From Streptococcus suis (GTDB lineage: Bacteria > Bacillota > Bacilli > Lactobacillales > Streptococcaceae): a stretch of DNA of 64,000 nt. A model generated the notes under the pieces. It made no database searches. It was given only the letters and a program-made list of their open reading frames with translations, and had not been told where the DNA came from. Shown here one piece after another: positions 4,441 through 52,766 of this stretch. Location of the stretch: the NCBI RefSeq assembly GCF_902702775.1, contig NZ_LR738724.1, positions 1,984,001-2,048,000 on the forward strand, in the 5' to 3' direction. Positions within the stretch are counted from its first letter, which is position 1. The number at the start of each line of letters is the position of its first letter. The position numbers and the translations under genes were made by a program.

Positions 4441-5381
4441 CAGTCGATATTGGGCTTATAAAAGGCTCGGTTATCCATGGCAAAGATGCGGTTGGTCATC
4501 TCACCTGGGCCGACCTTGTCCAAGGCCGATAGCATCATCATCATTTCCGCATCAATGTTGTCAATCATGTGGAGGATTTCCGCCTCCATAATCTGCGGAC
4601 GGACTGGGCTACCATATTCCAAGAGACCGTGGTGGCTGAGGATAACGTGACGCAGAACAGTCACTTCCTCCAGACTGTCATCGATGCCCAATTCCATCAA
4701 GACCTTGGTAATCTCTTCATCAATCAAGGAAATGTGTCCAATCAAATTGCCACGGACAGTGTAGCCTGTGTTATCAGGACCTGTCAGTTCAATCACTTTG
4801 GCTAGATCATGAAGCATGATTCCTGCAAAGAGCAGGCTCTTGTTGAGCTGAGGATAGATGTCACCAATTTTATCTGCCAAGCGGACCATGGTCGCTGTAT
4901 GGAAGGACAAACCTGAATAGAAGGCATGGTGATTGGTCTTGGCCGCTGGATAGGAATAAAATTCCTTGTCGTACTTGCTGTAAAGAGCACGGACAATCCT
5001 CTGCCAAGTGGCATTTTCAATACGGAAAATCATCTGGCTCAGATAGTCCTTGGTGTCATTGACATCCACCGGTGGCTTTTCCTTGAAATCAGCAGGGTCA
5101 TTGGGTTCGCCAGCTTTTGGCAAACGGAGAACCAATTGATTGACTTGCGGGGTATTGTTATAAACTTCACGGCGTCCCTGCACGTGAACAACTGTCCCAG
5201 CAGTAAAATCCTTGATTTTCCCTGGCTGGGCGTCCCAGACCTTGCCTTCAATTTCACCAGTATCATCCTGGAAGGTCAGGGCGAGGTAATCTTTGCCAGC
5301 TCGTGTTTGACGGACATCAGCTGTTTTAATAAGATAAAATCCTTCGAAGAATTCATCTTTTTTCATTTGGTTAATTTTCAT
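4440..5381 (-). CDS. yhaM: 3'-5' exoribonuclease YhaM (Cbf-type)
   Basis: Exoribonuclease of 313 residues that trims RNA 3' ends in Firmicutes. An N-terminal OB-fold (about 12-90, DYLALTFQDDTGEIEGKVW) binds nucleic acid and a central HD domain (HAFYSGLSFHTATM near 155; MLHDLAKVIE near 190) carries the metal ligands. I chose the ATG at 5381 because GAGGAAG lies 3-4 bases upstream; an in-frame start at 5393 is possible. Its 5' end overlaps the end of rmuC and its 3' end overlaps the kinase gene, so the whole block is coupled. Confidence 0.9.
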   Translation of the reverse strand: MKINQMKKDEFFEGFYLIKTADVRQTRAGKDYLALTFQDDTGEIEGKVWDAQPGKIKDFTAGTVVHVQGRREVYNNTPQVNQLVLRLPKAGEPNDPADFKEKPPVDVNDTKDYLSQMIFRIENATWQRIVRALYSKYDKEFYSYPAAKTNHHAFYSGLSFHTATMVRLADKIGDIYPQLNKSLLFAGIMLHDLAKVIELTGPDNTGYTVRGNLIGHISLIDEEITKVLMELGIDDSLEEVTVLRHVILSHHGLLEYGSPVRPQIMEAEILHMIDNIDAEMMMMLSALDKVGPGEMTNRIFAMDNRAFYKPNID

Positions 5382-6609
5382 TATCTTCCTCATCTAATGG
5401 GGACAGGCCAAGCAGTCCCTTGGTTTGGTCATCTTCGTACAGGTCAATGGTACGAAGACTACGCTCGATAGCGTTGGTGCGAGTGGTTAGGAGTTTGTCA
5501 ATATTGCTGCTGGCTTGATTGAGTTGTTTCTGAGCCTTAAGTAAGAGGTCAGAAAACTTGCCAAATTCCAGCTTGACATTGCCCAAGACCTTGGAAATAT
5601 CATCGGCCGACCGTTGAATGTTGAGGGTCTTAAAGCCGACGGAGAGGGAATTGAGCAGGGCAGAAAGGGTAGTCGGTCCTGCTACCACGATATTTTCCTG
5701 ACGGCGTAGGTCATCAAAGAAAATGGGATTGCGGACCACCTCTGAATACAGCCCTTCGGTTGGCAGAAAGAGCACACCAAAATTAGTCGTTTCAGGCGGA
5801 TTGAGGTACTTGCTCTGAATATCCTTGGCAAAACGTTTAATAGCCGCCAAGAGATTTTTGCGATGGAGGTCAATCTGGTCCTTGTCCCCACTTTCGTAAG
5901 CATCCTCCAAGCGGTAGTAATCCGCCAGCGGAAACTTGGAATCGATTGGCAAGTAAATATAATCTCCTTCCGTCCGTCCTGGTAGCTTGACCGCATACTC
6001 CACGCGCTCACTAGAGCCTGAAACCGTGGCAAACTCTCGCTCATATTGGCTAGGTGTCAAAATATCCTCGATAATCTGTCCCAGCTGCAATTCACCCATG
6101 ATGCCACGGGTTTTGGTGCCAGACAGCACCTTGTTAAGACTACCCACATCACGCGCCACCGTCTGCATTTCGCCCAGACCACGATTGACTGACTCCAACT
6201 GCTTGGACACCGTTTCAAAGGAGGCTTGTAGGCGGGTTTGCAGGGTTTTCTCCAGCTTTTCCTCGACCGTCTGCCGCATCTCTTCCAGGCGTTTTTCATT
6301 GGACTCCTGAATGGCCTGCAAACGGCGGTCGGTGGCATCTCGCGTTTCCAAGTGGCTCTTATTCAGCTCTTGACGGATGTCGGTTAGCTGTTGGTAAAGC
6401 TCCGTGCGGAGTCTTTCCACTTCCTGATGAATGGCTTGCTGCTGTTTGAGAGTTGCATTTTCTAGTTGATAGCTGAGCTGATCAGACAAGTTGTCTGCTG
6501 TGTCTTCTGCCTGATCTTGCAAAAGCAGGGCCAAGCTCTGCCATTTTCCATAAAGAAAAACCAAGGCAATCAAGACCAGTATCAGCAAAATAAGTAATAC
6601 AATATCCAT
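5371..6609 (-). CDS. rmuC: DNA recombination protein RmuC homologue
   Basis: Membrane-anchored protein of 412 residues. Residues 1-25 form a transmembrane segment, about 35-165 are a long charged coiled coil (QQQAIHQEVERLRTELYQQL), and the C-terminal two thirds carry the RmuC nuclease-like domain (GIMGELQLGQIIEDIL; IYLPIDSKFPLADYYRL near 225). In E. coli RmuC limits inversions at short repeats; the exact biochemical role is unsettled. Its start codon abuts the thiN stop, and its own stop lies inside the start region of yhaM. Confidence 0.88.
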   Translation of the reverse strand: MDIVLLILLILVLIALVFLYGKWQSLALLLQDQAEDTADNLSDQLSYQLENATLKQQQAIHQEVERLRTELYQQLTDIRQELNKSHLETRDATDRRLQAIQESNEKRLEEMRQTVEEKLEKTLQTRLQASFETVSKQLESVNRGLGEMQTVARDVGSLNKVLSGTKTRGIMGELQLGQIIEDILTPSQYEREFATVSGSSERVEYAVKLPGRTEGDYIYLPIDSKFPLADYYRLEDAYESGDKDQIDLHRKNLLAAIKRFAKDIQSKYLNPPETTNFGVLFLPTEGLYSEVVRNPIFFDDLRRQENIVVAGPTTLSALLNSLSVGFKTLNIQRSADDISKVLGNVKLEFGKFSDLLLKAQKQLNQASSNIDKLLTTRTNAIERSLRTIDLYEDDQTKGLLGLSPLDEEDNEN

Positions 6610-7242
6610 CTAATTCTTATCCTTACTGTAGATAAGGACCACGTAGCCCTTATCCAGTTGAATGTCTATATCTCTATCTATAAATTCGTTAGAGGAATAG
6701 CATTTTTTGAAAAAATAATTGCTGGCATCCAGCGGGTACTTGGCATGACGAATGGTCAGGCGGCTCTGGTCCGACGGCATAAAGGAAATGTACTTCATAC
6801 CAGCAATCGGTGACAAACGGTGCTGACCTGCAGGTCGAAAACGGACGATGTTCTGACTGTCCACCAATTCAATCTGCTCCATATAGGTTGCCAAGTCAGG
6901 CTCTGCAGCCAGAAAGAGATTGGCCATCATATGATCCATGCGGCCACCCAAGGCACCGTATATGCGAACCTGGGCCTGCGGATATGCCTTGAAGATTTCC
7001 TTTAAAGCCAGCTCCAAATCTGTATCATCTTTTTCAGCAGGAGCTTGCAAAAAACACTCTGCTTGATCCTTTATCCACCCTAACTCTTCAGGCGTCACCG
7101 AGTCAAAATCACCCATGGCCCAGTCAAGAGGCAGGGAATGGTCCAGAAGACGAAGAGAGCCTGCATCTACCCCCACATAGAGGTCGGCAGGCTCAGGAAG
7201 GCAGTCAAAGGAACCGCCTGCAATAACAGCAATCTTAATCAT
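6610..7242 (-). CDS. thiN: Thiamine pyrophosphokinase
   Basis: Transfers pyrophosphate from ATP to thiamine to give thiamine diphosphate; 210 residues, normal for the bacterial ThiN type. Characteristic segments are VGVDAGSLRLL (22-32), AMGDFDSVTPEEL (42-54), EKDDTDLELAL (70-80) and GALGGRMDHMMANL (about 95-108). It overlaps the end of rpe by eight bases and touches rmuC, so it is in the middle of the coupled operon. Confidence 0.9.
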   Translation of the reverse strand: MIKIAVIAGGSFDCLPEPADLYVGVDAGSLRLLDHSLPLDWAMGDFDSVTPEELGWIKDQAECFLQAPAEKDDTDLELALKEIFKAYPQAQVRIYGALGGRMDHMMANLFLAAEPDLATYMEQIELVDSQNIVRFRPAGQHRLSPIAGMKYISFMPSDQSRLTIRHAKYPLDASNYFFKKCYSSNEFIDRDIDIQLDKGYVVLIYSKDKN

Positions 7243-7894
7243 GGAGGGCCGCTCTCAATTTGGCAACGTTGGCATCCAAGTCTCCTTTGAAGAGATAGGA
7301 ACCAGCCACAAAGACATTGGCACCCGCATTTTTGGCTGAATGAATGGTCTTGTCGTCAATCCCGCCGTCCACTTCGATGTCAAAGTTCAAGCCTTTGGCT
7401 TCACGGAGTTTGACCAAGGCCTCAATCTTCTCAGCCACTTCTGGGATGTAGGCTTGTCCACCAAAACCTGGGTTGACCGTCATGAGCAGAACCTGATCCA
7501 CCAAGTTAAGCACAGGCTCAATGGTCACAAGAGGTGTACCTGGATTGATGACCACACCCACCTTCATACCAGCGGCACGGATTTTCTGCAAGGTCCCATG
7601 CAGGTGAACCGTTGCTTCTGCATGAATGGTTAAAATATCTGCACCCGCACGTGCAAAGGTCTCAATATGATTTTCAGGATTGGACACCATGAGATGGCAA
7701 TCAAAAACCAGCTTGCTGTGGGGACGCATAGCCGCAACCACATCCGCCCCAAAGCTAATATTTGGCACAAAATGACCGTCCATGACATCAATGTGCACAT
7801 ACTCCACACCTGTCTTTTCTAGACGTTTGAGCTCTTTTTCAAAATTTGCATAATCTGCCGCCAAAATAGACGGTGCAATCTTATAATGTGACAT
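7235..7894 (-). CDS. rpe: Ribulose-phosphate 3-epimerase
   Basis: Interconverts ribulose-5-phosphate and xylulose-5-phosphate in the pentose phosphate pathway. It is 219 residues with the complete TIM-barrel: KIAPSILAADYANFEKEL (N-terminus), HIDVMDGHFVPNISFG near 35-50 (metal-binding His/Asp), HLMVSNPENHI near 67, MTVNPGFGGQAYIPEV near 138 and EVDGGI near 175. It lies 14 bases downstream of rsgA. Confidence 0.96.
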   Translation of the reverse strand: MSHYKIAPSILAADYANFEKELKRLEKTGVEYVHIDVMDGHFVPNISFGADVVAAMRPHSKLVFDCHLMVSNPENHIETFARAGADILTIHAEATVHLHGTLQKIRAAGMKVGVVINPGTPLVTIEPVLNLVDQVLLMTVNPGFGGQAYIPEVAEKIEALVKLREAKGLNFDIEVDGGIDDKTIHSAKNAGANVFVAGSYLFKGDLDANVAKLRAALHD

Positions 7895-41268: not shown

Positions 41269-42255
41269 TTATTTTGAGGATAAATCTTCTAGTAATTTTT
41301 CAAAATCAGAATTTATCTTTTGGGTTTTATTAAAAATTGCATATTCTGACCGAGCTTTCTCCTTGGCTGACTGCCTTGTAATTTGACCATACCCCTCTAA
41401 AAGTTCATAATCTTGAAAGGCTAAAAATCGGTCAATACTATCTGCCAAATCTTGCATGGTCTGAGTTTTTCCTTGCTCAATTTGTCGCTCCAGATAGTCA
41501 AAGTAGCCCGAAATACTACGTTCCAGCGAACGAATTTCCTTTTCGTTCAGATAATTTTTAGCCACAAGAGCGTCCGATTGCAAAATACGTCCGTCAGGAG
41601 AGTGCTTCCAGGTTACCAACCCCATGTTCGCTTTGGTGTGGTCTGCCTTTTCATAAATAATTTCTGCAGCTGTTTTACCTGTAATCGCATAATGAAATTT
41701 ATTTTGCACATGAGCATAGAATTGCTTAGTCATCAAGCTATTAGCGTCATAATCAATCGCAATCTCTGCAAAAATATCTGTGATTTGTAACCAAATTCGT
41801 CGTTCACTAGCACGGATAGAACGAACTCGTTCTAAGAGCTCACGGAAATAATCTTTTTCCAACAGGTTTTCGCCTTGCTTCAAACGCTCATCATCCATGG
41901 CAAAACCTTTAATCATGTATTCTCGAAGCACAGTTGTTGCCCACTGCCTAAACTTAGTAGCCTTTTGAGAATTGACACGATAACCGACGGAAATGATGGC
42001 ATCGAGATTGTAATAGCTAGTTAGATAATTTTTACCATCACTTGCAGTTGTTTCCATTTTGGAAATAACTGAATGCTCATCTAGTTCGCCTTCTTCAAAA
42101 ATATTTTTCAAATGTTTGCTGATAGCTGGCACACCAACATCAAATAGTCTTGCCATTTCCTTTTGACTGGCCCAAATCGTCTCGTCACTGACAATAACAC
42201 TAGCCTTTTCTTGGTCATTTTCTGCTCGGTAAATTAAAAATTGTAATTCCTTCAT
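41269..42255 (-). CDS. RhuM-family protein
   Basis: Protein of 328 residues of the virulence-RhuM family: VSDETIWASQKEMARLFDVG and a helix-turn-helix-like stretch at the N-terminus (about 20-60), YYNLDAIISVGYRVNSQKAT near 84, and a Fic-related C-terminal part (KADHTKANMGLVTW, about 205). First described in Salmonella SPI-3; the biochemical function is not known. In many genomes it accompanies mobile or defence loci. It is an orphan between dut and an unknown gene, an indication of a variable spot. Confidence 0.85.
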   Translation of the reverse strand: MKELQFLIYRAENDQEKASVIVSDETIWASQKEMARLFDVGVPAISKHLKNIFEEGELDEHSVISKMETTASDGKNYLTSYYNLDAIISVGYRVNSQKATKFRQWATTVLREYMIKGFAMDDERLKQGENLLEKDYFRELLERVRSIRASERRIWLQITDIFAEIAIDYDANSLMTKQFYAHVQNKFHYAITGKTAAEIIYEKADHTKANMGLVTWKHSPDGRILQSDALVAKNYLNEKEIRSLERSISGYFDYLERQIEQGKTQTMQDLADSIDRFLAFQDYELLEGYGQITRQSAKEKARSEYAIFNKTQKINSDFEKLLEDLSSK

Positions 42256-42273
42256 ATTTGCCTCTTTAATTAT

Positions 42274-42810
42274 TTAGGGCTCACTCCCCACTACAAATTC
42301 ATCCGCATTTTTCGTCACAAATGCAAAAAGTGTTGTTAAGGGAAAGGCGTACTCGTCATCAAAGCGGGCTGCACGTAGCCACAAGTCTTGGTCAACCTTA
42401 CGGAGATAGACACTGCGAGGGAAGGCGAATTCTTCTTCCAACTGAGGCGATAGCAGGCAAATGGCTCCGTCTGGTGATTTTCCTTGGGACAGAATATTAT
42501 CTTGACTAACTTCCTGTTTCAACAAGGCCAGCCGAAGATAAACTCCCAGATGAGCTGGTGGTAATTGATAACCAATCTCCACGGCTCTCTCCTCTATCTG
42601 AGGAGCAGTTGCTTCCCGATCAAATCCCATATCAGCTAGACTGACAATCTCAACTAAACACTTCTGTTTCTCCACCACTTCTTGATAAGTTGGATGAGCT
42701 AGGTAGGTCTTGAAATAGGCATTTACCAAAATCCCCTTGTCATCTAAGTAGGCAAGGATTTCTTCTTTTTTTAGGGGAAATAATTCAACTCGAACGCTCA
42801 GTCTTTTCAT
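42274..42810 (-). CDS. Hypothetical protein, possibly leaderless transcript
   Basis: Soluble protein of 178 residues that I do not recognise. KRLSVRVELFPLKKEEILAY at the N-terminus and GKSPDGAICLLSPQLEEEFA near 120 suggest a mixed alpha/beta protein. No Shine-Dalgarno sequence precedes the ATG at 42810. Instead TATAAT lies six bases upstream, which would place transcription start at the ATG. The longer frame to 42966 runs through the rgg terminator and is unlikely. Confidence 0.65.
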   Translation of the reverse strand: MKRLSVRVELFPLKKEEILAYLDDKGILVNAYFKTYLAHPTYQEVVEKQKCLVEIVSLADMGFDREATAPQIEERAVEIGYQLPPAHLGVYLRLALLKQEVSQDNILSQGKSPDGAICLLSPQLEEEFAFPRSVYLRKVDQDLWLRAARFDDEYAFPLTTLFAFVTKNADEFVVGSEP

Positions 42811-42853
42811 AGGTCTATTATACACTAATTCATCAAAGGCTGCGATTTTCAGC

Positions 42854-42877
42854 AAAAAAACACCTGACCTACAGGTG
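42854..42877 (-). terminator. Terminator of rgg
   Basis: CACCTG and CAGGTG form a 6-bp stem with a 5-base loop followed by seven T on the minus strand. Confidence 0.85.
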
Positions 42878-42904
42878 CTACAAATATAAACTAGCTCAAG
42901 CAGT

Positions 42905-43771
42905 TCAAACCTCTTCCGAGCCAAAAATCTCCCAATACTTCTCGACTTCTTGCTCCAACTGTTCAACCATCTCTAGCAAGTCTGCGGCTCGGAGAATGGT
43001 AAGCCCCTTGTCCACCATCTCTCTATCCTGTTGAAAGATGCCCATACGGACATTGGCCATGCCTACATAATCAATCCGCATACTTTCCTGAGCCATGGCA
43101 TAAACTCTCTCCATAACAGGATGACACAAGCCATACTTTTCTTTTCTCAACAAGACAGTTGATAGGTTATAGAGAAAAGTCAAATGACTAACATGAATGT
43201 CTCTGAAATTCTTATATTTGTCCAAGGAAAGCAAAATTTTATCTACAAAATTTTCCAAATGGACTACAGGAATAATCGGAAGAATAAGACTTAGCTTACG
43301 AAAATCAGCCAGATACCAAGTATCTGACTTTTCTAGCTCTTGCCAGAGTTCCTGAGCTAGCTGCTTTGTTTGTTGCCCATCTCCTACCTGAAGGATAGAT
43401 AGCAACAAACGTAATTGTTTTTCTATCCGCTGAACCCGTATATCTTCATGCTTCTTCAAATACTGCTCTACTTGGTACAAAAAATCCCGACAGTTTGATT
43501 CAGAAAAAAATAGTCCTCTCAGATTTTCAAAGCGATGGATGATAGAAGAACGCTCCGAAGGCTGATAGGCATGGCAGATATAGTCAAACTCTGCAAAGGT
43601 CATATCCAGCTGACGAAGAATATGGGAAAAGTGAGCAATGGTCGGGTACTCTTTGTTGTTTTCAATTTTTGATAGGGTCGTCCGTGACAAGGCATCTCCA
43701 CAAACTTCCTGCTGGCTAAGCCCTTTTGATTTGCGAATCTCTTTTAAGACTGTTCCAAAATCCCACTTCAT
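42905..43771 (-). CDS. rgg: Rgg/GadR/MutR-family peptide-responsive regulator
   Basis: Cytoplasmic transcription factor of 288 residues. An N-terminal XRE helix-turn-helix (about 5-62: VLKEIRKSKGLSQQEVCGDA, SRTTLSKIENNKEYPTIAHF) is followed by an all-helical tetratricopeptide-like domain to the C-terminus that binds imported peptide in this family. ATG at 43771 has GGAGG five bases upstream; the preceding ATG at 43774 is also possible. The gene is divergent from the Trp-rich peptide gene, with an inverted repeat between, the usual Rgg/SHP layout. It is not a ComR by its sequence. Confidence 0.92.
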   Translation of the reverse strand: MKWDFGTVLKEIRKSKGLSQQEVCGDALSRTTLSKIENNKEYPTIAHFSHILRQLDMTFAEFDYICHAYQPSERSSIIHRFENLRGLFFSESNCRDFLYQVEQYLKKHEDIRVQRIEKQLRLLLSILQVGDGQQTKQLAQELWQELEKSDTWYLADFRKLSLILPIIPVVHLENFVDKILLSLDKYKNFRDIHVSHLTFLYNLSTVLLRKEKYGLCHPVMERVYAMAQESMRIDYVGMANVRMGIFQQDREMVDKGLTILRAADLLEMVEQLEQEVEKYWEIFGSEEV

Positions 43772-43782
43772 CATAACCTCCC

Positions 43783-43807
43783 AAAACGTGAGAAATGTTT
43801 ACGTTTT
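43783..43807. promoter_or_regulatory. Candidate Rgg operator
   Basis: AAAACGTGA (43783-43791) and TTACGTTTT (43799-43807) form an inverted repeat, 8 of 9 positions paired, spaced by 7 bases. It lies between the two divergent genes, just upstream of a plus-strand promoter (CATAAT at 43834-43839 or TATGAT at 43826-43831) without a good -35, as expected for an activated promoter. Confidence 0.6.
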
Positions 43808-43877
43808 CAACAATTGCACTTATTCTATGATACCATAATAGTAAATAAAAACAAACAAAATGATAGGAGGTCCTCTT

Positions 43878-43991
43878 ATGAAAACTTGGAAAAACTATCT
43901 CTTGCTTTTAGCTTACCTAGCAATCCTCATGGTTCCACACCTCCTAGGCGGTGGCTGGTGGTCATGGCCGTTACCAATTATCAACAAATAA
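43878..43991 (+). CDS. Trp-rich short hydrophobic peptide, candidate pheromone precursor
   Basis: Peptide of 37 residues: MKTWKNYLLLLAYLAILM followed by VPHLLGGGWWSWPLPIINK. It has a basic N-terminus, a hydrophobic core and a short C-terminal tail with WWSW, the layout of SHP and double-Trp pheromone precursors. AGGAGG precedes the ATG with a seven-base spacer, the best ribosome site in the region. The gene is divergent from rgg, with an inverted repeat between them. No Gly-Gly leader processing peptidase is nearby, so export/processing would use general factors. An alternative is a small membrane-active or immunity peptide. Confidence 0.72.
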   Translation: MKTWKNYLLLLAYLAILMVPHLLGGGWWSWPLPIINK

Positions 43992-44112
43992 ATAAGATAC
44001 CACCATCTCACCACTCTGGAAAGGAGGAAAAAGACTGGAAACTATATGTTGAGTGGAGGGGGTGGGAAAGCTAATCTTAAAAATAAAAATACACTTAGGA
44101 AGGAAAATTATC

Positions 44113-44397
44113 ATGAAAAAGTTTGCTAAATTAGGTTTTGCCTTGGGAATTGCTTGTAGTTTAATGGTATCCACAGTCGCCTTTGCAGATTTTGTCGATG
44201 GTGGCGAATGGCATTATGGAGTTGGATGGACAGGAACCTACGGGTATTCCAACTACCATCATCCAACACGTTCTCATACCGCTACTGTAAAAAATGGGCA
44301 ACATGAAAACCGTCAACGCCAAGGCGCAGGTATTTGGGCAAAAGCATCTATTACCAAAATCCCACCAACTGGCATGGAATATTTCTATGGTTTTTGA
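44113..44397 (+). CDS. Lactococcin-972-family bacteriocin
   Basis: Secreted protein of 94 residues. Signal peptide MKKFAKLGFALGIACSLM continues to STVAFA, with cleavage expected near residue 25, leaving about 69 residues. The mature part (EWHYGVGWTGTYGYSNYHHP; SHTATVKNG; GAGIWAKASITKIPPTG; FYGF end) carries the aromatic/Gly pattern of the lactococcin 972 family, whose founder binds lipid II and blocks septum formation. There is no Cys. GGAAGG precedes the ATG. The two genes behind it are the usual partners of this family. Confidence 0.86.
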   Translation: MKKFAKLGFALGIACSLMVSTVAFADFVDGGEWHYGVGWTGTYGYSNYHHPTRSHTATVKNGQHENRQRQGAGIWAKASITKIPPTGMEYFYGF

Positions 44398-44545
44398 TAT
44401 GCACTAAAATTAGTTTTCCACAGACCATGAAATTAAGAGAAAAACGATTACCATGCTCAGAAATGTTTGATAGTAGGGTAATCGGGAACAACTGTTACTC
44501 ATCAATTGCTAAATGACTGATAGTCAAATTCAAAAAGATAGTTAG

Positions 44546-44580
44546 TTTCCGACCAGCTCTATTGGTGTGCTGGTCGGAAA
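44546..44580 (+). other. 12-bp perfect stem-loop between bacteriocin and membrane-protein genes
   Basis: TTTCCGACCAGC and GCTGGTCGGAAA enclose an 11-base loop. No T run follows, so it is a poor terminator. It could protect the bacteriocin mRNA from 3' decay or reduce read-through, giving more bacteriocin than immunity transcript. Confidence 0.6.
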
Positions 44581-44602
44581 ACGTTTATAAGGAGGTGTTC
44601 AG

Positions 44603-46711
44603 ATGAAAAGGCTAAACCATTTCTGTATGATTCTACTTCTGTGTTGTGTCAGTTTTATCGTTGTAAATCTACACTATACAAAGGAAATCAATCGCATACG
44701 TGAATTAGGAACGACTGACTATTCATTTCAATTTTATTTACGCGATAGTGCCGTTCCTTCACAGGATTTACTGCATTTTTTTGAAAAAATTGCTGATAAA
44801 TACGACGTTTCAATTGTCAAAACAGATAGCAACACCGAGATAATAAAAGCAGGTGTTTTTTCTCATGAGACCTTTCCTTATAAAGATTTTGGAATCCAGC
44901 AACTTACTTTTAACGAAGACGGAAGTGGATCTTATACAAATATACAATCCTCCGACAAACTAGGGCATATCCCAACATTTTTGCAGGCCAAGACGATACG
45001 GCTCATCACTTTAAAAAACTATTTTCAAGATACATCCCATACACTAAATGGTCAGTATACCGTCACATCAACAAAATCCATAAACGGCACTGAAATCGTA
45101 CAGGAATTAAGTCATTTTTTCAATATTGATTCTTCTACACTATTGACTCCAACCTTTGAAACAGCAGTAGAATTAATAAACAGAGACTTGCTACTAGTAG
45201 CACTCATCTGCTGTATCGCATTTTTACTCCTTTCATTAACTTCTGTGTACCAACCAATTTTAGATATCAAACATATCGGCGTTGAAAAAATACTTGGATA
45301 CAGTAACTTAGAGATTTTCTATCGCTATGTAAAACAAAATATACTAATCATAGGAATCGGTAGTATCATTCTAAATAGTTTATCGTTTCTGTTTTTTGAC
45401 TACATGCCTCAAGGTTTTACAACTATGATGCTGTTAGCGCATTTTATCCTCCTTCAAGTCTATCTACTCATCAACATTTTAGTCATCACAATTATCCAAC
45501 GCATTAATGCCGCATCTATCATAAAAGGATTTGTTTCCTTCAAAACAGGATTCTATATCAATAATTTCTTCAAATGTTGTCTCACACTTCTTATCACTAT
45601 ATTGATGATTGGTGTCGGAAATAGCATTTATGAGGAACACCAAGAATTGAACTATCAAGAACAATGGGAAAAACAGGGAGATTTCCTAACACTCGAAACC
45701 GTAAAATCAGGAAATCAACTCTGGCAAGATAGCCTGTCTGGTTCCGACAAAGCTCATCAATATTATTACTCCTTATATAAGAATTTGACAGAAAATCTTC
45801 CAACTTACTATATTCGTTCTAGTATCATAAACCCTGGCAATTTCTCACATCTTAAAGAATTTGAACATTCAACATTGGCTAATGACATCCCTGTTCTATA
45901 CGCCAACAAAACCTATCTAGAAAGTATAGGATTTCCGATTCCACATACAAGTAAACAATTGACTGTACTCTTTCCAGCATCAATGAAAGAGAATGAAGAG
46001 TCTAACAAAAATCTAGCAAAATTGATTGGTTTTCTGTCACTGAAATATGAAGAACAAGTGGCAAAAACAGTCAGCGAGGTAGATGTTGAATACATTTATT
46101 ATGACGGCGACTGGACATTCTTCCCATACAATGAAACCTTATCCAACAATTTCACTAATCCAATGATTAGCCTGGTCAATGACAATGATATGTCGTGGGA
46201 AGATAAAGCACACCTATCAAATACTGGACTAAGTAGCCCAATCAAAATTGCAAATTCCCCTCAACATCAACAAAAAATCGAACAAATTCTTCAGAAATTA
46301 CCTGATGATAGCTATTTCAAGTTCTCGTCAATAAAATCTATTCAACAAGGACGTGTAGATAGTTTCCGAGACGCTAGTCGTAACTTCGTCACCCTGTTTG
46401 CGATTATCTGCTTACTGAGCATTGTTGTTTCCTATTTTATTGTAAAAAGTATGTTTCTTTGGAGAAAATCTCATATCATCACTATGAAATTTTTAGGATG
46501 GTCACTTTTTGACCGCTACAAACCTATTCTAATCGGACTAACTCTACTATATTTGCTACCTCTTCCAGTTATTTTGATAGCTGGTAAGTCACTATTTCCT
46601 CTTGCACTTTTTTTACTATTTGCCATTGCTGATGGGGGTATTTTCCTATTTACATCACTGCGCATGGAGCAAAAAAATCTTGTACAATACTTGAAAGGAG
46701 AGAACCTATGA
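44603..46711 (+). CDS. Bacteriocin-associated integral membrane protein (DUF1430)
   Basis: Membrane protein of 702 residues with the FtsX/MacB-like topology of the lactococcin-972-associated family: one N-terminal membrane helix (about 6-24), an extracellular domain (25-190), four helices (about 193-345), a second extracellular domain (350-590) and three C-terminal helices (about 592-685). It is thought to give immunity or export with its ATPase partner. AAGGAGG precedes the ATG. It overlaps the next gene by four bases (ATGA). Confidence 0.85.
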   Translation: MKRLNHFCMILLLCCVSFIVVNLHYTKEINRIRELGTTDYSFQFYLRDSAVPSQDLLHFFEKIADKYDVSIVKTDSNTEIIKAGVFSHETFPYKDFGIQQLTFNEDGSGSYTNIQSSDKLGHIPTFLQAKTIRLITLKNYFQDTSHTLNGQYTVTSTKSINGTEIVQELSHFFNIDSSTLLTPTFETAVELINRDLLLVALICCIAFLLLSLTSVYQPILDIKHIGVEKILGYSNLEIFYRYVKQNILIIGIGSIILNSLSFLFFDYMPQGFTTMMLLAHFILLQVYLLINILVITIIQRINAASIIKGFVSFKTGFYINNFFKCCLTLLITILMIGVGNSIYEEHQELNYQEQWEKQGDFLTLETVKSGNQLWQDSLSGSDKAHQYYYSLYKNLTENLPTYYIRSSIINPGNFSHLKEFEHSTLANDIPVLYANKTYLESIGFPIPHTSKQLTVLFPASMKENEESNKNLAKLIGFLSLKYEEQVAKTVSEVDVEYIYYDGDWTFFPYNETLSNNFTNPMISLVNDNDMSWEDKAHLSNTGLSSPIKIANSPQHQQKIEQILQKLPDDSYFKFSSIKSIQQGRVDSFRDASRNFVTLFAIICLLSIVVSYFIVKSMFLWRKSHIITMKFLGWSLFDRYKPILIGLTLLYLLPLPVILIAGKSLFPLALFLLFAIADGGIFLFTSLRMEQKNLVQYLKGENL

Positions 46712-47337
46712 TTCATTTAGAACATATCTTTAAAAAGATTGGTCAAAAACATATCCTACATGATTTTTCCCTCAACATTGAACAAGGTGAACTAGTCGCA
46801 ATTGTTGGAAAAAGTGGTAGCGGAAAAACAACATTACTAAACATCATTGGCTTGCTTGACGGTGAATACGAAGGAAATTACCTCCTATTTGGTCATTCAA
46901 ACGTACCTGTAAACACTAGGACATCTCAAAAAATAATTCGGGAACAAATTTCCTATCTATTCCAAAATTTTGCTCTAATTGAGAACGAAAGCGTCGAGTA
47001 TAATCTCCTGATGGCATTAAAATATACCAGATTATCAAAAAAGGAAAAGGAAGAGTCCATAAAAAATATACTAGAAAAAATCGGACTAGCAAACACGCTA
47101 AAACAAAAAATTTCCGAGCTGTCTGGAGGAGAACAACAGCGAATTGCTATCGCTCGTGCTCTACTCAAACCAAGCAATCTTATCTTGGCAGATGAGCCAA
47201 CGGGATCATTAGATCAGGAAAATAGGGACTTAATCCTGCAATTTCTCATAGAAATGAATAATAGTGGAAAAACAGTAATTATCGTCACACACGATCCATA
47301 TATTGCCGATAAGTGTCAGCGGATTGTTCGTTTATGA
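46708..47337 (+). CDS. ABC transporter ATPase of the bacteriocin locus
   Basis: ATPase subunit of 209 residues, MacB/LolD type. Walker A GKSGSGKTT near 35, signature LSGGEQQR near 138, Walker B LILADEPTGSLD near 158 and H-loop VIIVTHD are intact. Start overlaps the DUF1430 gene; together they form the putative immunity/efflux complex. Confidence 0.93.
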   Translation: MIHLEHIFKKIGQKHILHDFSLNIEQGELVAIVGKSGSGKTTLLNIIGLLDGEYEGNYLLFGHSNVPVNTRTSQKIIREQISYLFQNFALIENESVEYNLLMALKYTRLSKKEKEESIKNILEKIGLANTLKQKISELSGGEQQRIAIARALLKPSNLILADEPTGSLDQENRDLILQFLIEMNNSGKTVIIVTHDPYIADKCQRIVRL

Positions 47338-47378
47338 TTTAGATAGTTTCTACACCCTTTGCGAATAAGCTTTCCGCT

Positions 47379-47400
47379 AAGAACCTACATTCACAAGTGA
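47379..47400 (+). repeat. Third copy of the 18.9-kb inverted-repeat end
   Basis: AAGAACCTACATTCACAAGT is 18/20 identical to the left end at 18922-18941, and the following GAGGTACTTCCAC is also related. It lies just behind the bacteriocin ATPase gene. Confidence 0.6.
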
Positions 47401-47500
47401 GGTACTTCCACACCCAGAAGCAGGTCGTCTATGGCCTGACCCGAATACGGCATTGACTCTGCCGAGGTTATCATATTCAAGAACAATTTAGATACAACAA

Positions 47501-47543
47501 GAAAAGGTCTGAAAACCAGCTCATCTGGTTTTCAGACCTTTTC
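47501..47543. terminator. Strong bidirectional terminator behind the bacteriocin operon
   Basis: Perfect 19-bp stem (47501-47519 with 47525-47543; outer part GAAAAGGTCTG, inner AAAACCAG) and a 5-base loop, T-rich on both outer sides. Confidence 0.85.
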
Positions 47544-47551
47544 TATCTTCC

Positions 47552-47671
47552 CTATTCAAACACAAACTGGTTGTGGTAGAGTTCGGCGTAGAAGCTATTG
47601 AGTTTAAGGAGCTGGCTGTGGTTGCCTTGCTCGATAACTTTTCCGTCTTTGAGGACGATGATTTCATCCGC
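47552..47671 (-). pseudogene. 3' fragment of the ABC exporter gene at 50982-52766
   Basis: The minus strand encodes the last 39 codons of the ABC half-transporter, [20 protein letters not shown] through to QFVFE and a stop, nearly identical to the end of the gene at 50982. There is no upstream part. The fragment and the intact gene have the same orientation and flank 3.3 kb. Confidence 0.88.
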
Positions 47672-47681
47672 AAGTCTGGAT

Positions 47682-48041
47682 CTATTTCTCTGGTATAACC
47701 CAAAACAGATAGTAAGTAATAAAGACTGTCAGCAAGCCAAGTCCAATTTTGACAAATAATACAGGAGCCAACCAAATGGAAATCCCCATGAGTATGTAGA
47801 TTTGCCAGATAATTTGTTTTTTCCGTTTACGGGAAATGGCTTTGGTTTCAGCATAATCCGCTACGTAAAATTTATAAATTTTTGTATTGCGTAGCCATTT
47901 TTCAAAATTTTTAGAGCTTCTAGCAAAACAAAATCCAGCCAAAAGTAAAAGAGGCGTTGTTGGAATTATAGGTAGAACAATCCCAATCATGCCAATAGCA
48001 AGACTAACAAAACCAGCTACTAGATAAACAATTTTTTTCAT
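47682..48041 (-). CDS. DUF454 (YbaN-family) membrane protein
   Basis: Small membrane protein of 119 residues. [20 protein letters not shown] followed by [20 protein letters not shown] is the hallmark of DUF454, with two further hydrophobic stretches at the C-terminus. I chose the ATG at 48041; longer frames overlap the divergent reductase gene. Function unknown. Its stop lies 11 bases from the truncated ABC fragment. Confidence 0.85.
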
Positions 48042-48168
48042 AATACTATTATACCAAAAGAGTTCGTGATTTTTTGAACATTTTCTGTATAGTTTAGGAA
48101 AGCGCTCGCTTTCCACCCTGTAAACTGGTATGATAAGGATATTACATTTAGAAAAGAGAGAAGATGCT

Positions 48169-48771
48169 ATGAAACTTCTAGGACTTGTCGGAACCAACTC
48201 CGCTCGCTCAACCAACCGCAAACTCTTGCAGTACATCAAACAGCATTTCGCAGACAAGGCTGATATTGAATTGGTTGAAATCAAGGACCTTCCAGTCTTC
48301 AATAAACCGGCTAATCGTGAACTGCCAGAAAGTGTTAAAGAATTAGTTGCAAAGATTGAAAGTGCTGATGGTGTCATCATCGGAACACCTGAGTATGACC
48401 ACTCGATCCCCGCTGTTCTTATGAATGCACTAGCTTGGGTATCATATGGAGTCTACCCTATGCTTAACAAGCCGGTTATGATTACAGGTGCCTCATACGG
48501 AACACTCGGTTCGTCCCGTGCTCAATTGCAACTACGCCAAATTCTCAATGCTCCTGAACTCAAAGCTACTGTTTTACCAGATGAGTTCTTACTATCTCAT
48601 TCCATGAAAGCCTTTGATACAAACGGTGAGCTTATTGATTTAGAAATCAGTCAAAAACTGGATGCCATCTTTGATGACTTCCGTCTCTTTGTCAAGATGA
48701 CAAGTAACCTGTCTAGCGCCAAAGAGTTACTTCAAAAAGAAGCTGAAAACTTTGACTGGGAAAACTTGTAA
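48169..48771 (+). CDS. NADPH-dependent FMN reductase
   Basis: Flavodoxin-like reductase of 200 residues. LGLVGTNSARSTNRKLLQYI is the N-terminal FMN phosphate loop, GVIIGTPEYDHSIPAVLMNA near 65 the classical NADPH:FMN reductase motif and ITGASYGTLGSSRAQLQLRQ near 105 completes the flavin pocket. GAGAGAAGA precedes the ATG at 48169. It leads a unit with a second paralogous reductase and an FNT channel. Confidence 0.9.
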   Translation: MKLLGLVGTNSARSTNRKLLQYIKQHFADKADIELVEIKDLPVFNKPANRELPESVKELVAKIESADGVIIGTPEYDHSIPAVLMNALAWVSYGVYPMLNKPVMITGASYGTLGSSRAQLQLRQILNAPELKATVLPDEFLLSHSMKAFDTNGELIDLEISQKLDAIFDDFRLFVKMTSNLSSAKELLQKEAENFDWENL

Positions 48772-50981: not shown

Positions 50982-52766
50982 CTATTCAAACACAAACTGG
51001 TTGTGGTAGAGCTCAGCGTAAAAGCCGTTAAGTTTAAGAAGTTGGCTGTGGTTGCCTTGCTCGATAACTTTTCCGTCTTTGAGGACGATAATTTCATCCG
51101 CATTGAGAATGGTTTTGAGGCGGTGGGCAATGACGAAGCTGGTCCGTCCTGCAATAATGGCCTCCATAGCCTTTTGAATTTTGGCTTCCGTTACGGTATC
51201 GACGTTAGACGTTGCTTCGTCCAAAATCAAGACCTGTGGATCTGTCAAGAGCGTACGGGCAATAGAAATCAGCTGTTTCTGACCTGTGGAGAAGACATTC
51301 TCATCATCGGTCACATAGGTTTCATAACCCTCTGGCAAGCTCATGATAAAGTCGTGGATATGGGTGGCACGAGCTGCGGTTTCCACCATTTCCTGCGAAA
51401 TGCTCTCATCACCAAAGCGGATATTGTCCGCAATGGTACCAGAGAATAGGACCGACTCCTGCAAGACAATACCGACCTTATCCCGCAAACTATCCAAATC
51501 ATATTCCCGAATATCGCGACCGTCAAAGGCCACGCTACCACCATTGACATCGTAGAAGCGGTTGATCAAATTCATAATGGTAGTCTTACCAGATCCCGTC
51601 GGACCAACGACCGCCACCATTTTACCCTTAGGAGCTGAAATGGACACCTTGTCCAAGACCTTCTGACCTGGCAGGTAGCCAAAGTCGATGTCCTTGATTT
51701 CAACACCTTCTTTTAATTCGGTAAATAGCGGAGCGTTTTGAGGACGAACTTCCTCAGGCTCATCAAACATTTCCTGAATACGATGAGCACCTGTGAAAGC
51801 CAACTGCAATTCTGCCCAGCTAGATGCAATCTGCATGATAGGCTGGTAATACTGTTGCGAATATTGAACAAAGGTCACGACCAAACCAAGTGCGGCAGCT
51901 GTTTCCAGCGAGCTATCATTTAGGACAATGCTGGAGCCTGCAAAGATAACAATGGCAGTATTGACCAGACTCATCCCGTTCATAAATGGAAAGAGAATCC
52001 CACCAAACAAACGGCCCTTGAAAGTTGTGCGACGAACTTCTTCATTGAGCTCTAAGAAACCATCAATAGTCTCTTCCTGCACACCCTGTACAATAATCGC
52101 TTTTTGCCCTGAAATCTTCTCATCCATGTAGGCATTGAGTTTAGACACCGCAGCCTGTTGCTTGTCAGTATATTTCCGTGACAGGCGAATGATAATCACT
52201 AGGGCAATCAAGGCAACTGGCGTGGATGCCACAGTTACCAGAGCCAAGCGAGTATCCTGACGGAACATCATGATAACCATACCGATGTAAAGAGCAATAT
52301 TGGTCACTACCTGAGTCAAGGACTGATTAAAAGCATTTTGGATATTGTCCAAATCACTGGTAAAACGAGAAAGAATATCCCCATCCTTGTGGCTGTCAAA
52401 GAAGGCAACTGTCAAGCGTTCCAACTTGCCAAACAGACCTTTTCGCATCCGGTTGGTTGAATGTGCAACGATGCGTGTAAAGAGCAGGGTATAAATCAAG
52501 GTTGATACCACAGTCGCCACATAGGCCAACAAGAGATTGAGCATAACCCCATTAAAATCAGCTAGGTCAGGCTTGAAATCTGACTGACCCATTTGCACCG
52601 AAGCAAAATAAGCCTGCCCAATTTTCCCCATCTCTGCAATCGCATTACCTAGGAAAACAGGCGTCTTCACCTGCAAATAAGTCGCCGTCACAATGGCTAG
52701 AAAAATCACAGCAAAGGACAGCTTATAGCGTTTAAAATAAAACCAGAAAAATCTAAGTGTTTTCAT
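50982..52766 (-). CDS. ABC exporter half-transporter, second gene of MarR operon
   Basis: Half-transporter of 594 residues, fused membrane (about 15-320) and ATPase domains with Walker [10 protein letters not shown], Walker [13 protein letters not shown] and H-loop AHR. The signature is degenerate (FSTGQKQL instead of LSGGQ), typical of one partner in heterodimeric exporters such as PatAB or LmrCD. With the gene at 52967 it forms one exporter, probably for drugs or peptides. Its 3' end is duplicated at 47552. Confidence 0.88.

Follow-up and report, generated by a model that had tools for sequence, protein, structure and literature searches.

The DNA analysed here, referred to below as the window, is a stretch of 64,000 nucleotides from the pig-associated Streptococcus suis (assembly GCF_902702775.1, contig NZ_LR738724.1, positions 1,984,001 to 2,048,000). 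It contains an rgg-type regulator gene divergent from a 37-codon open reading frame (ORF), which is followed on the same strand by a gene resembling that of lactococcin 972 (lcn972), a membrane protein gene and an ATPase gene. We found the regulator and peptide to be a real, conserved pheromone module of the Rgg/WxW group, typified by the pneumococcal pair RtgR/RtgS, and this module most likely controls the lactococcin 972 operon. The locus as a whole very probably forms a self-contained Rgg/WxW quorum-sensing circuit with the bacteriocin operon as its output. Gene content, conservation, linkage, an operator-like repeat and differing cargoes at one site were all observed directly.

The regulator and its peptide

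All gene coordinates of the original prediction (rgg, the 37-codon ORF, the lcn972-like gene, the membrane protein and the ATPase) were confirmed, and the ribosome site of the ORF, described there as optimal, is a perfect AGGAGG (Table 1). The window regulator matched the helix-turn-helix (HTH) profile HTH_3 (1.9e-8) and had 49 homologous proteins at 33-100% identity, those at 97-98% being S. suis proteins; Rgg_C (PF21259) was found on 6 of the 49. An AlphaFold model (mean predicted local distance difference test score 85.6, predicted template modelling score 0.65) was all-helical, with the predicted layout of an RRNPP Rgg, an N-terminal HTH and a helical domain of peptide-binding type. Foldseek gave 53 matches to the model at E ≤ 0.001; Rgg2, Rgg144, Rgg3, ComR, PlcR and PrgX were among the 50 listed, at template modelling (TM) scores of about 0.4-0.6, and the best two among those listed were a Listeria regulator (4ryk) and S. 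salivarius NrpR (9lth). By homology and predicted fold, the window regulator is an Rgg.

The bacteriocin belongs to the lactococcin 972 family, as seen from the family profile and from the presence of both partner genes; killing of sensitive cells through lipid II and the septum is a mark of such bacteriocins. The precursor matched PF09683 (E 1.9e-22), TIGR01653 (56.5 bits, cut-off 32.1) and the solved Lcn972 chain 2lgn (E 1.5e-8), and a Sec-type signal peptide of about 25 residues was recognised by eye. The ATP-binding cassette (ABC) ATPase scored 290.8 bits against TIGR03608 (cut-off 254.85). The membrane protein had been predicted as DUF1430; it scored 337.9 bits against TIGR01654, far over the cut-off of 189.35, whereas the DUF1430 profile itself stayed under its own (22.9 bits, cut-off 28.2).

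Conservation of the peptide beside homologous rgg genes had been set beforehand as a refutation test, and the pairing survived it. We compared nine S. suis-type loci: the window, L035-L040 (S. suis), and L087 and L088, whose regulators show 84-85% identity. Eight of the nine have the short divergent ORF in intact form, and the leader MK.WKNYLLLL.Y.AIL is kept in seven, L039 and L088 deviating. The tails differ: WWSWPLPIINK, WWDWPLPIINK, WGDWPLPIINK, GWNLIIPIVNK, GWNLIVPIINK, GWVIIWPVINK, GWILIWPIINK and GWIWIATGINK were found. Ratios of nonsynonymous to synonymous polymorphism (pN/pS) of 0.33-0.58, in leader and tail and in both length groups, indicate purifying selection on the peptide gene; positive selection was not detected in these counts across the S. 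suis-type loci. On these values the peptide ORF looks translated and constrained. In one assembly only, that of S. suis HN129 (L038:7700-7900), a stop codon takes the place of the first codon of the pheromone tail, although the receptor frame and the bacteriocin operon appear intact, making this a possible signal-mute strain. In S. suis 2256 (L040:8001-8866) the receptor frame is broken and the pheromone gene and cargo are still there.

The peptide had been given the layout of a short hydrophobic peptide (SHP). This was right for the arrangement of the genes; the peptide itself fails the SHP definition because it has no Asp or Glu among its 37 residues, and a canonical SHP, with its conserved Asp/Glu at the start of the mature peptide, was rejected. 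We also rejected a ComRS arrangement, the peptide gene being divergent from the regulator gene and not downstream of it on the same strand, and a double-glycine peptide of a peptidase-containing ABC transporter (PCAT), GG being inconstant (GD in L035, L036 and L040; SG in L039) and the leader a membrane-type segment. The window peptide is a hydrophobic precursor encoded divergently from rgg, with a WxW motif (WSW) near its C terminus, and judged by its sequence it belongs with the Rgg/WxW pairs. These have been proposed as a distinct group, the assignment of members being left to future work (PMC7018657). The motif varies among relatives, some S. suis-type tails, such as GWNLIIPIVNK, having no WxW.

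A mechanical filter for such peptides (20-42 residues, basic start, hydrophobic core, at least two Trp among the final 14 residues, good ribosome site), whose criteria were set with the peptides already known, was run on both strands of 63 loci (1.09 Mb). It returned 34 rows corresponding to 32 distinct ORFs, as one ORF appears under two starts and L044 and L094 represent a single contig, and 29 of the 32 lie at most 250 bp from an RtgR-like start codon. Several RtgR-like rgg genes had no detected peptide. Trp-rich pheromone-like ORFs away from an rgg start were seen at L041:5182, behind the cargo, and at L043:5220, as a second copy. Used as a protein-database query, the window peptide yielded one further relative, P0050.

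A quick tree of 53 regulators was built, with support from the Shimodaira-Hasegawa-like approximate likelihood ratio test (SH-aLRT) only and with flags on several long branches. In it, L041, L089, L090 and L091 grouped with the S. suis-type rows in a clade of 12 (SH-aLRT 100), and a separate RtgR clade of 22 rows (SH-aLRT 99), probably from mitis-group species, included L104, the locus with a published RtgS sequence. The window regulator shares no more than about 39% identity with the RtgR set and falls in a clade of its own; on this one quick tree, the separation of the two clades suggests kinship to RtgR/S rather than RtgR orthology. The genome has a second Rgg outside the window (C1:1932239-1933075, L032), 35% identical to the window regulator. 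No lcn972 gene was found beside it, though the similar regulators of L177 and L152 have one.

Linkage to lactococcin 972 genes across the genus

Our survey covered the genus with one genome per species (cluster), 284 in all. Matches to lcn972 were found in 58 of them, at 74 places (one place being split over two of the 75 rows). Close homologues, defined by at least 56% identity over at least 63 residues, numbered 27. In 14 of these 27 an RtgR-like rgg lies directly upstream in divergent orientation (4 of the S. suis type and 10 of the RtgR clade), and an intact peptide gene stands between rgg and lcn972 in 13 of the 14. The predicted co-occurrence of the pair with the lcn972-like gene is real and recurs.

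One further place is a fragment (G151), and the other 46 were inspected up to 5 kb on each side. Among these, a strong divergent Rgg lies 326-367 bp away in four (L152, L165, L171 and L177), and nine have a weak-scoring HTH regulator upstream on the same strand, within 500 bp in eight; these nine loci are presumably of ScbR/ComR type. The peptide of L171 is of the Trp type, while the divergent peptides of L152 and L177 end in ETQPATHLVG and have no Trp; the scan gave no peptide for L165, yet the same ending could be read there by eye. L152, L165 and L177 (around 5000-6500) represent a second Rgg-lcn972 pairing, with another lcn972 subfamily.

By our own arithmetic, based on 3 Rgg-like matches in a genome of 2.19 Mb, a gene has a chance of about 0.1-0.2% of lying at most 500 bp from an Rgg. 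The linkage counts are not independent events, because the genomes are related; the linkage is nevertheless found in both of two distinct clades of Rgg, and a second subfamily of lcn972 shows it as well. The tie of lcn972-linked RtgRs to the experimentally studied RtgR/S system is direct at the sequence level, because the L104 peptide ends in AIIFPWGWPI, the RtgS type A sequence tabulated in PMC13361665, and the RtgRs of L104 and of L092, the latter locus with lcn972 cargo, share 91% identity. An ORF ending in AIIFPWGWSI (published RtgS type B) was seen at L115:2410, on the ATPase side of an lcn972 operon and about 2.4 kb beyond it; the fetched stretch contained no intact RtgR.

Different cargoes at one site

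The module extends beyond the window locus, and lcn972 is one of several cargoes at the same site. All nine S. suis-type loci share the rgg-side flank. On the far side, L035-L038, L040 and L087 resume at or before window position 47.55 kb, and in L039 and L088 this flank starts with the exporter gene. L088 has undergone a rearrangement: the genes that intervene are found there on the opposite side of rgg. In the window, a partial copy of the exporter gene 3' end (Table 1) marks the far edge of the variable slot. The slot holds lcn972 and its two partners in the window, L035, L038 and L087. L036 instead has a phospholipase A2 (PLA2)-like gene (7080-7637), with a PF00068 profile match (CLWHDACF) and a signal peptide seen by eye; the same ORF, judged by its first residues, is present in L037 and L040, and L040 also has an Enterocin-A-immunity profile match. 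A C92 amidase is the cargo of L088, and L039 carries an unknown protein with a MacAB-like exporter, comprising a MacA-like protein (below the family cut-off) and, both recognised by eye, an ATPase and a permease. Descent of the PLA2-like cargo from EntV is not claimed, the BLASTP match (E 0.004) covering 38 residues only.

Tails of the WWxWPLPIINK type occur with lcn972 and with PLA2-like cargo, and so do those beginning GWNLI(I/V)P. Three intact tail types are found together with lcn972 cargo; nine loci do not suffice to test whether tail and cargo are independent. We tentatively consider, at somewhat less than even confidence, that the S. suis complex site is a combinatorial signal-and-weapon locus in which one Rgg/operator chassis is combined with pheromones differing in a short tail, and the effector cassettes recombine independently of pheromone type. 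If so, neighbours could share a signal without sharing weapon and immunity, or the reverse, and signal-mute and receptor-broken alleles would arise as social cheats or eavesdroppers. Bacteriocin switching with retention of the regulator has been described beside TprA and Rgg in pneumococcus (PMC6120550); the principle is therefore known, and the S. suis site is a new instance of it with variable pheromones.

Operator, proposed circuit and known systems

Many peptide genes are preceded by a box with the pattern GTRA-N7-TWAC. It was found in 37 of 56 rgg upstream regions of 110 bp and in 51 of 10607 control stretches (0.5%), a comparison weakened by the pattern having been derived from the same sequences in which it was counted. 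One of the 37, in L165, overlaps the ribosome site and is probably due to chance, and L103, with a box further out, was scored as a miss. An inverted repeat of the Rgg/WxW type accordingly precedes the pheromone gene in the window and in 36 others of the 56 regions. The window box stands directly 5' of a promoter-like TTTTCA-16-TATGAT, of which the TATGATA stretch is mostly conserved in an alignment of upstream regions; the consensus scan for promoters gave 11 matches where 14.2 were expected from shuffles. Two boxes were present in 7 and one box in 8 of the 15 RtgR-clade loci scanned; in the rtgS1 region, two promoters have been described, the required inverted repeat being present in both (PMC7018657). 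The exact window operator occurs once in the genome. Allowing up to three mismatches gave 67 matches against 105 for the reversed control and therefore no sign of further sites, and a regulon beyond the locus was rejected on these two results.

The gap between the peptide gene and lcn972 is 110-121 bp in 13 of the 14 linked loci and 65 bp in L038. The consensus scan, which found 5 terminator-like sites against 3.2 in shuffles, placed none in the window spacer (43992..44112), so that read-through from pheromone to bacteriocin gene is expected. Of the nine S. suis-type loci, seven retain a hairpin in the spacer (z -1.71, with 11 of 200 shuffles being as stable); the hairpin showed no two-sided pair changes and is not claimed as an RNA element. 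The stem-loop between the bacteriocin and transporter genes is stronger (z -3.35, 0 of 200 shuffles as stable); it is possibly an attenuator or messenger RNA stabiliser, and might favour the bacteriocin over its partners. An Rfam scan of 42000-48500 gave no match at E 1. Outside S. suis, a short GGTGAGTCCAATGG-like element was seen by eye after the pheromone stop in L092, L097, L028 and L043.

Table 1. Features of the rgg-bacteriocin locus, in window positions.
Feature	Position	Strand	Evidence
Intrinsic-terminator-like site 3' of rgg	42859..42879	-	consensus scan, pattern match only
Rgg-type regulator, RtgR-like, 289 aa	42905..43774	-	HTH_3 match, homologues, fold
Operator-like inverted repeat GTGAGAAATGTTTAC, 15 bp, between rgg and the peptide promoter	43788..43802	.	
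Promoter-like TTTTCA-16-TATGAT of the peptide gene, abutting the operator-like repeat	43804..43831	+	consensus match only
AGGAGG ribosome-binding site of the peptide gene	43865..43870	+	sequence
Predicted pheromone precursor, RtgS-like, 37 codons and stop, tail GGGWWSWPLPIINK	43878..43991	+	
Spacer of 121 bp from pheromone stop to bacteriocin start; hairpin-capable, no T-run	43992..44112	+	
Lactococcin 972 family bacteriocin precursor, 94 aa	44113..44397	+	PF09683, TIGR01653
Strong stem-loop between bacteriocin and transporter genes	44546..44580	+	folding against shuffles
TIGR01654 bacteriocin-associated integral membrane protein (DUF1430 region), 702 aa	44603..46711	+	
TIGR03608 lactococcin-972-type ABC transporter ATPase, 209 aa	46708..47337	+	
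Direct repeat (121 bp, 93%) copying the ABC exporter gene 3' end at 50982-51102	47552..47672	.	

By analogy with related systems, we infer the following circuit. The 37-residue precursor would be exported (by PptAB in related systems) and trimmed to a Trp-rich C-terminal peptide, which, as in RtgR/S, would be taken up again through the Ami oligopeptide permease and bound by Rgg. The complex would then bind the inverted repeat and activate the promoter of the peptide gene, in a density-dependent manner. Because the peptide gene comes first in the operon and no terminator-like site precedes the bacteriocin gene, activation should result in positive feedback on the pheromone and switch on the bacteriocin together with its membrane protein and ABC ATPase. 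The genome holds an EcsB-family (PptB-like) protein, an M50 protease and oligopeptide-binding proteins, family-level evidence that makes export, processing and import possible. In experiments on RtgR/S, RtgR, RtgS, PptAB, Ami and the inverted repeat were all required (PMC7018657).

Observations of several kinds weigh against this circuit or against its generality. An Rgg of this type lies directly upstream in only 18 of the 74 lcn972-like places, and 13 of the 27 close homologues are without one in that position: in six the rgg is 1.4-4.6 kb off, with a peptide in three of the six and intervening genes in all four whose ORFs were inspected; in one (L104) the lcn972 operon lies behind rgg; and in six no rgg was found within the fetched stretch. 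The operator-like box had no match in 19 of the 56 upstream regions, and L035 and L036 are one base off the pattern. Receptor and peptide types are not strictly matched in the S. suis-type loci; L037, with the tail WWDWPLPIINK, has a receptor type other than that of the window. The Pfam Rgg_C profile gave no match on the window regulator. Two lcn972 copies, in L035 (near 7660) and L098 (near 8080), have no ATG at the position where the gene usually starts, and may therefore start elsewhere or be impaired.

Repression by Rgg3-type regulators is known, and the window Rgg might likewise be a repressor lifted by the peptide, or act in both ways. Auto-repression is possible, as the operator-like repeat is also only a short way upstream of rgg. 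However, its position against a promoter whose -35 is poor (TTTTCA) suits an activator, and RtgR is needed for activation in the nearest studied system (PMC7018657); we regard repression as unlikely. Equally, the pair could control only itself or other genes and leave the bacteriocin operon to a promoter of its own, as might be thought from the pair being found without lcn972 in L036, L037, L039, L040 and L088, and from the six close homologues lacking an rgg in the fetched stretch. Such independence is quite unlikely in view of the same-strand order, the near-constant gap and the terminator-free window spacer, of an adjacency shared by separate Rgg clades and seen again beside another lcn972 subfamily, and of an exact operator that is unique in the genome. 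That the short ORF encodes a membrane-active microprotein (a bacteriocin or immunity peptide) rather than a pheromone is most improbable: its hydrophobic core and Trp-rich end would suit a membrane peptide too, but it stays with the regulator while the cargo changes, has a variable tail on a mostly conserved leader, and occupies a position like that of the published RtgS pheromone.

Activation by an Rgg/WxW pair is the logic of RtgR/RtgS of S. pneumoniae, where Rgg is also divergent from a short hydrophobic precursor with a Trp-X-Trp tail, an inverted repeat precedes the peptide gene, and close RtgR relatives carry lcn972 cargo. The window differs in that its tail runs seven residues past WxW, in its single operator box as against two promoters each with a repeat at rtgS1, and in its lcn972 cargo, the published rtg cargo being a PCAT with GG peptides. 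The streptococcin B system (scbABC/ScbR) likewise combines an lcn972-type bacteriocin and two partner genes with an RRNPP regulator, and with a double-Trp peptide in S. pseudopneumoniae; unlike in the window, ScbR is of ComR type, scb lies directly downstream of it, and control is exerted via ComE in most pneumococci (PMC11796350). Its bacteriocin is presumably of another lcn972 subfamily than that of the window. Rgg/SHP and ComRS systems have the same receptor fold and the same expected export and import logic, but differ by the Asp/Glu of SHP and by the position of comS downstream of comR. Lcn351 of S. suis WUSS351 is lcn972-like, active against S. suis and B. subtilis and expressed more highly in stationary phase (PMC9067509); its locus may be that of the window, and the term Rgg is absent from the main text of that paper.

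The original prediction had called this a system of an unrecognised kind, which was too strong, the Rgg/WxW group and a ComR-type lcn972 locus having already been published, as has bacteriocin switching beside Rgg. A search of open-licence PMC full texts, mostly at the level of result listings, found no link between Rgg/WxW and lcn972, and the streptococcin B authors state that it is unclear how streptococcins A, C and D are controlled (PMC11796350). The linkage suggests that an lcn972 subfamily of S. suis and other streptococci is under Rgg/WxW pheromone control. This is testable with short synthetic peptides, and may explain the stationary-phase expression of S. suis lcn972-type bacteriocins. 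A signal module of a known type is kept while the weapon genes differ among related strains, which points to density-controlled killing. A defined site at which signal and weapon types vary separately would offer a natural setting for how bacteria keep the two matched, and the interest of the module would be greater if signal and weapon prove to recombine freely.

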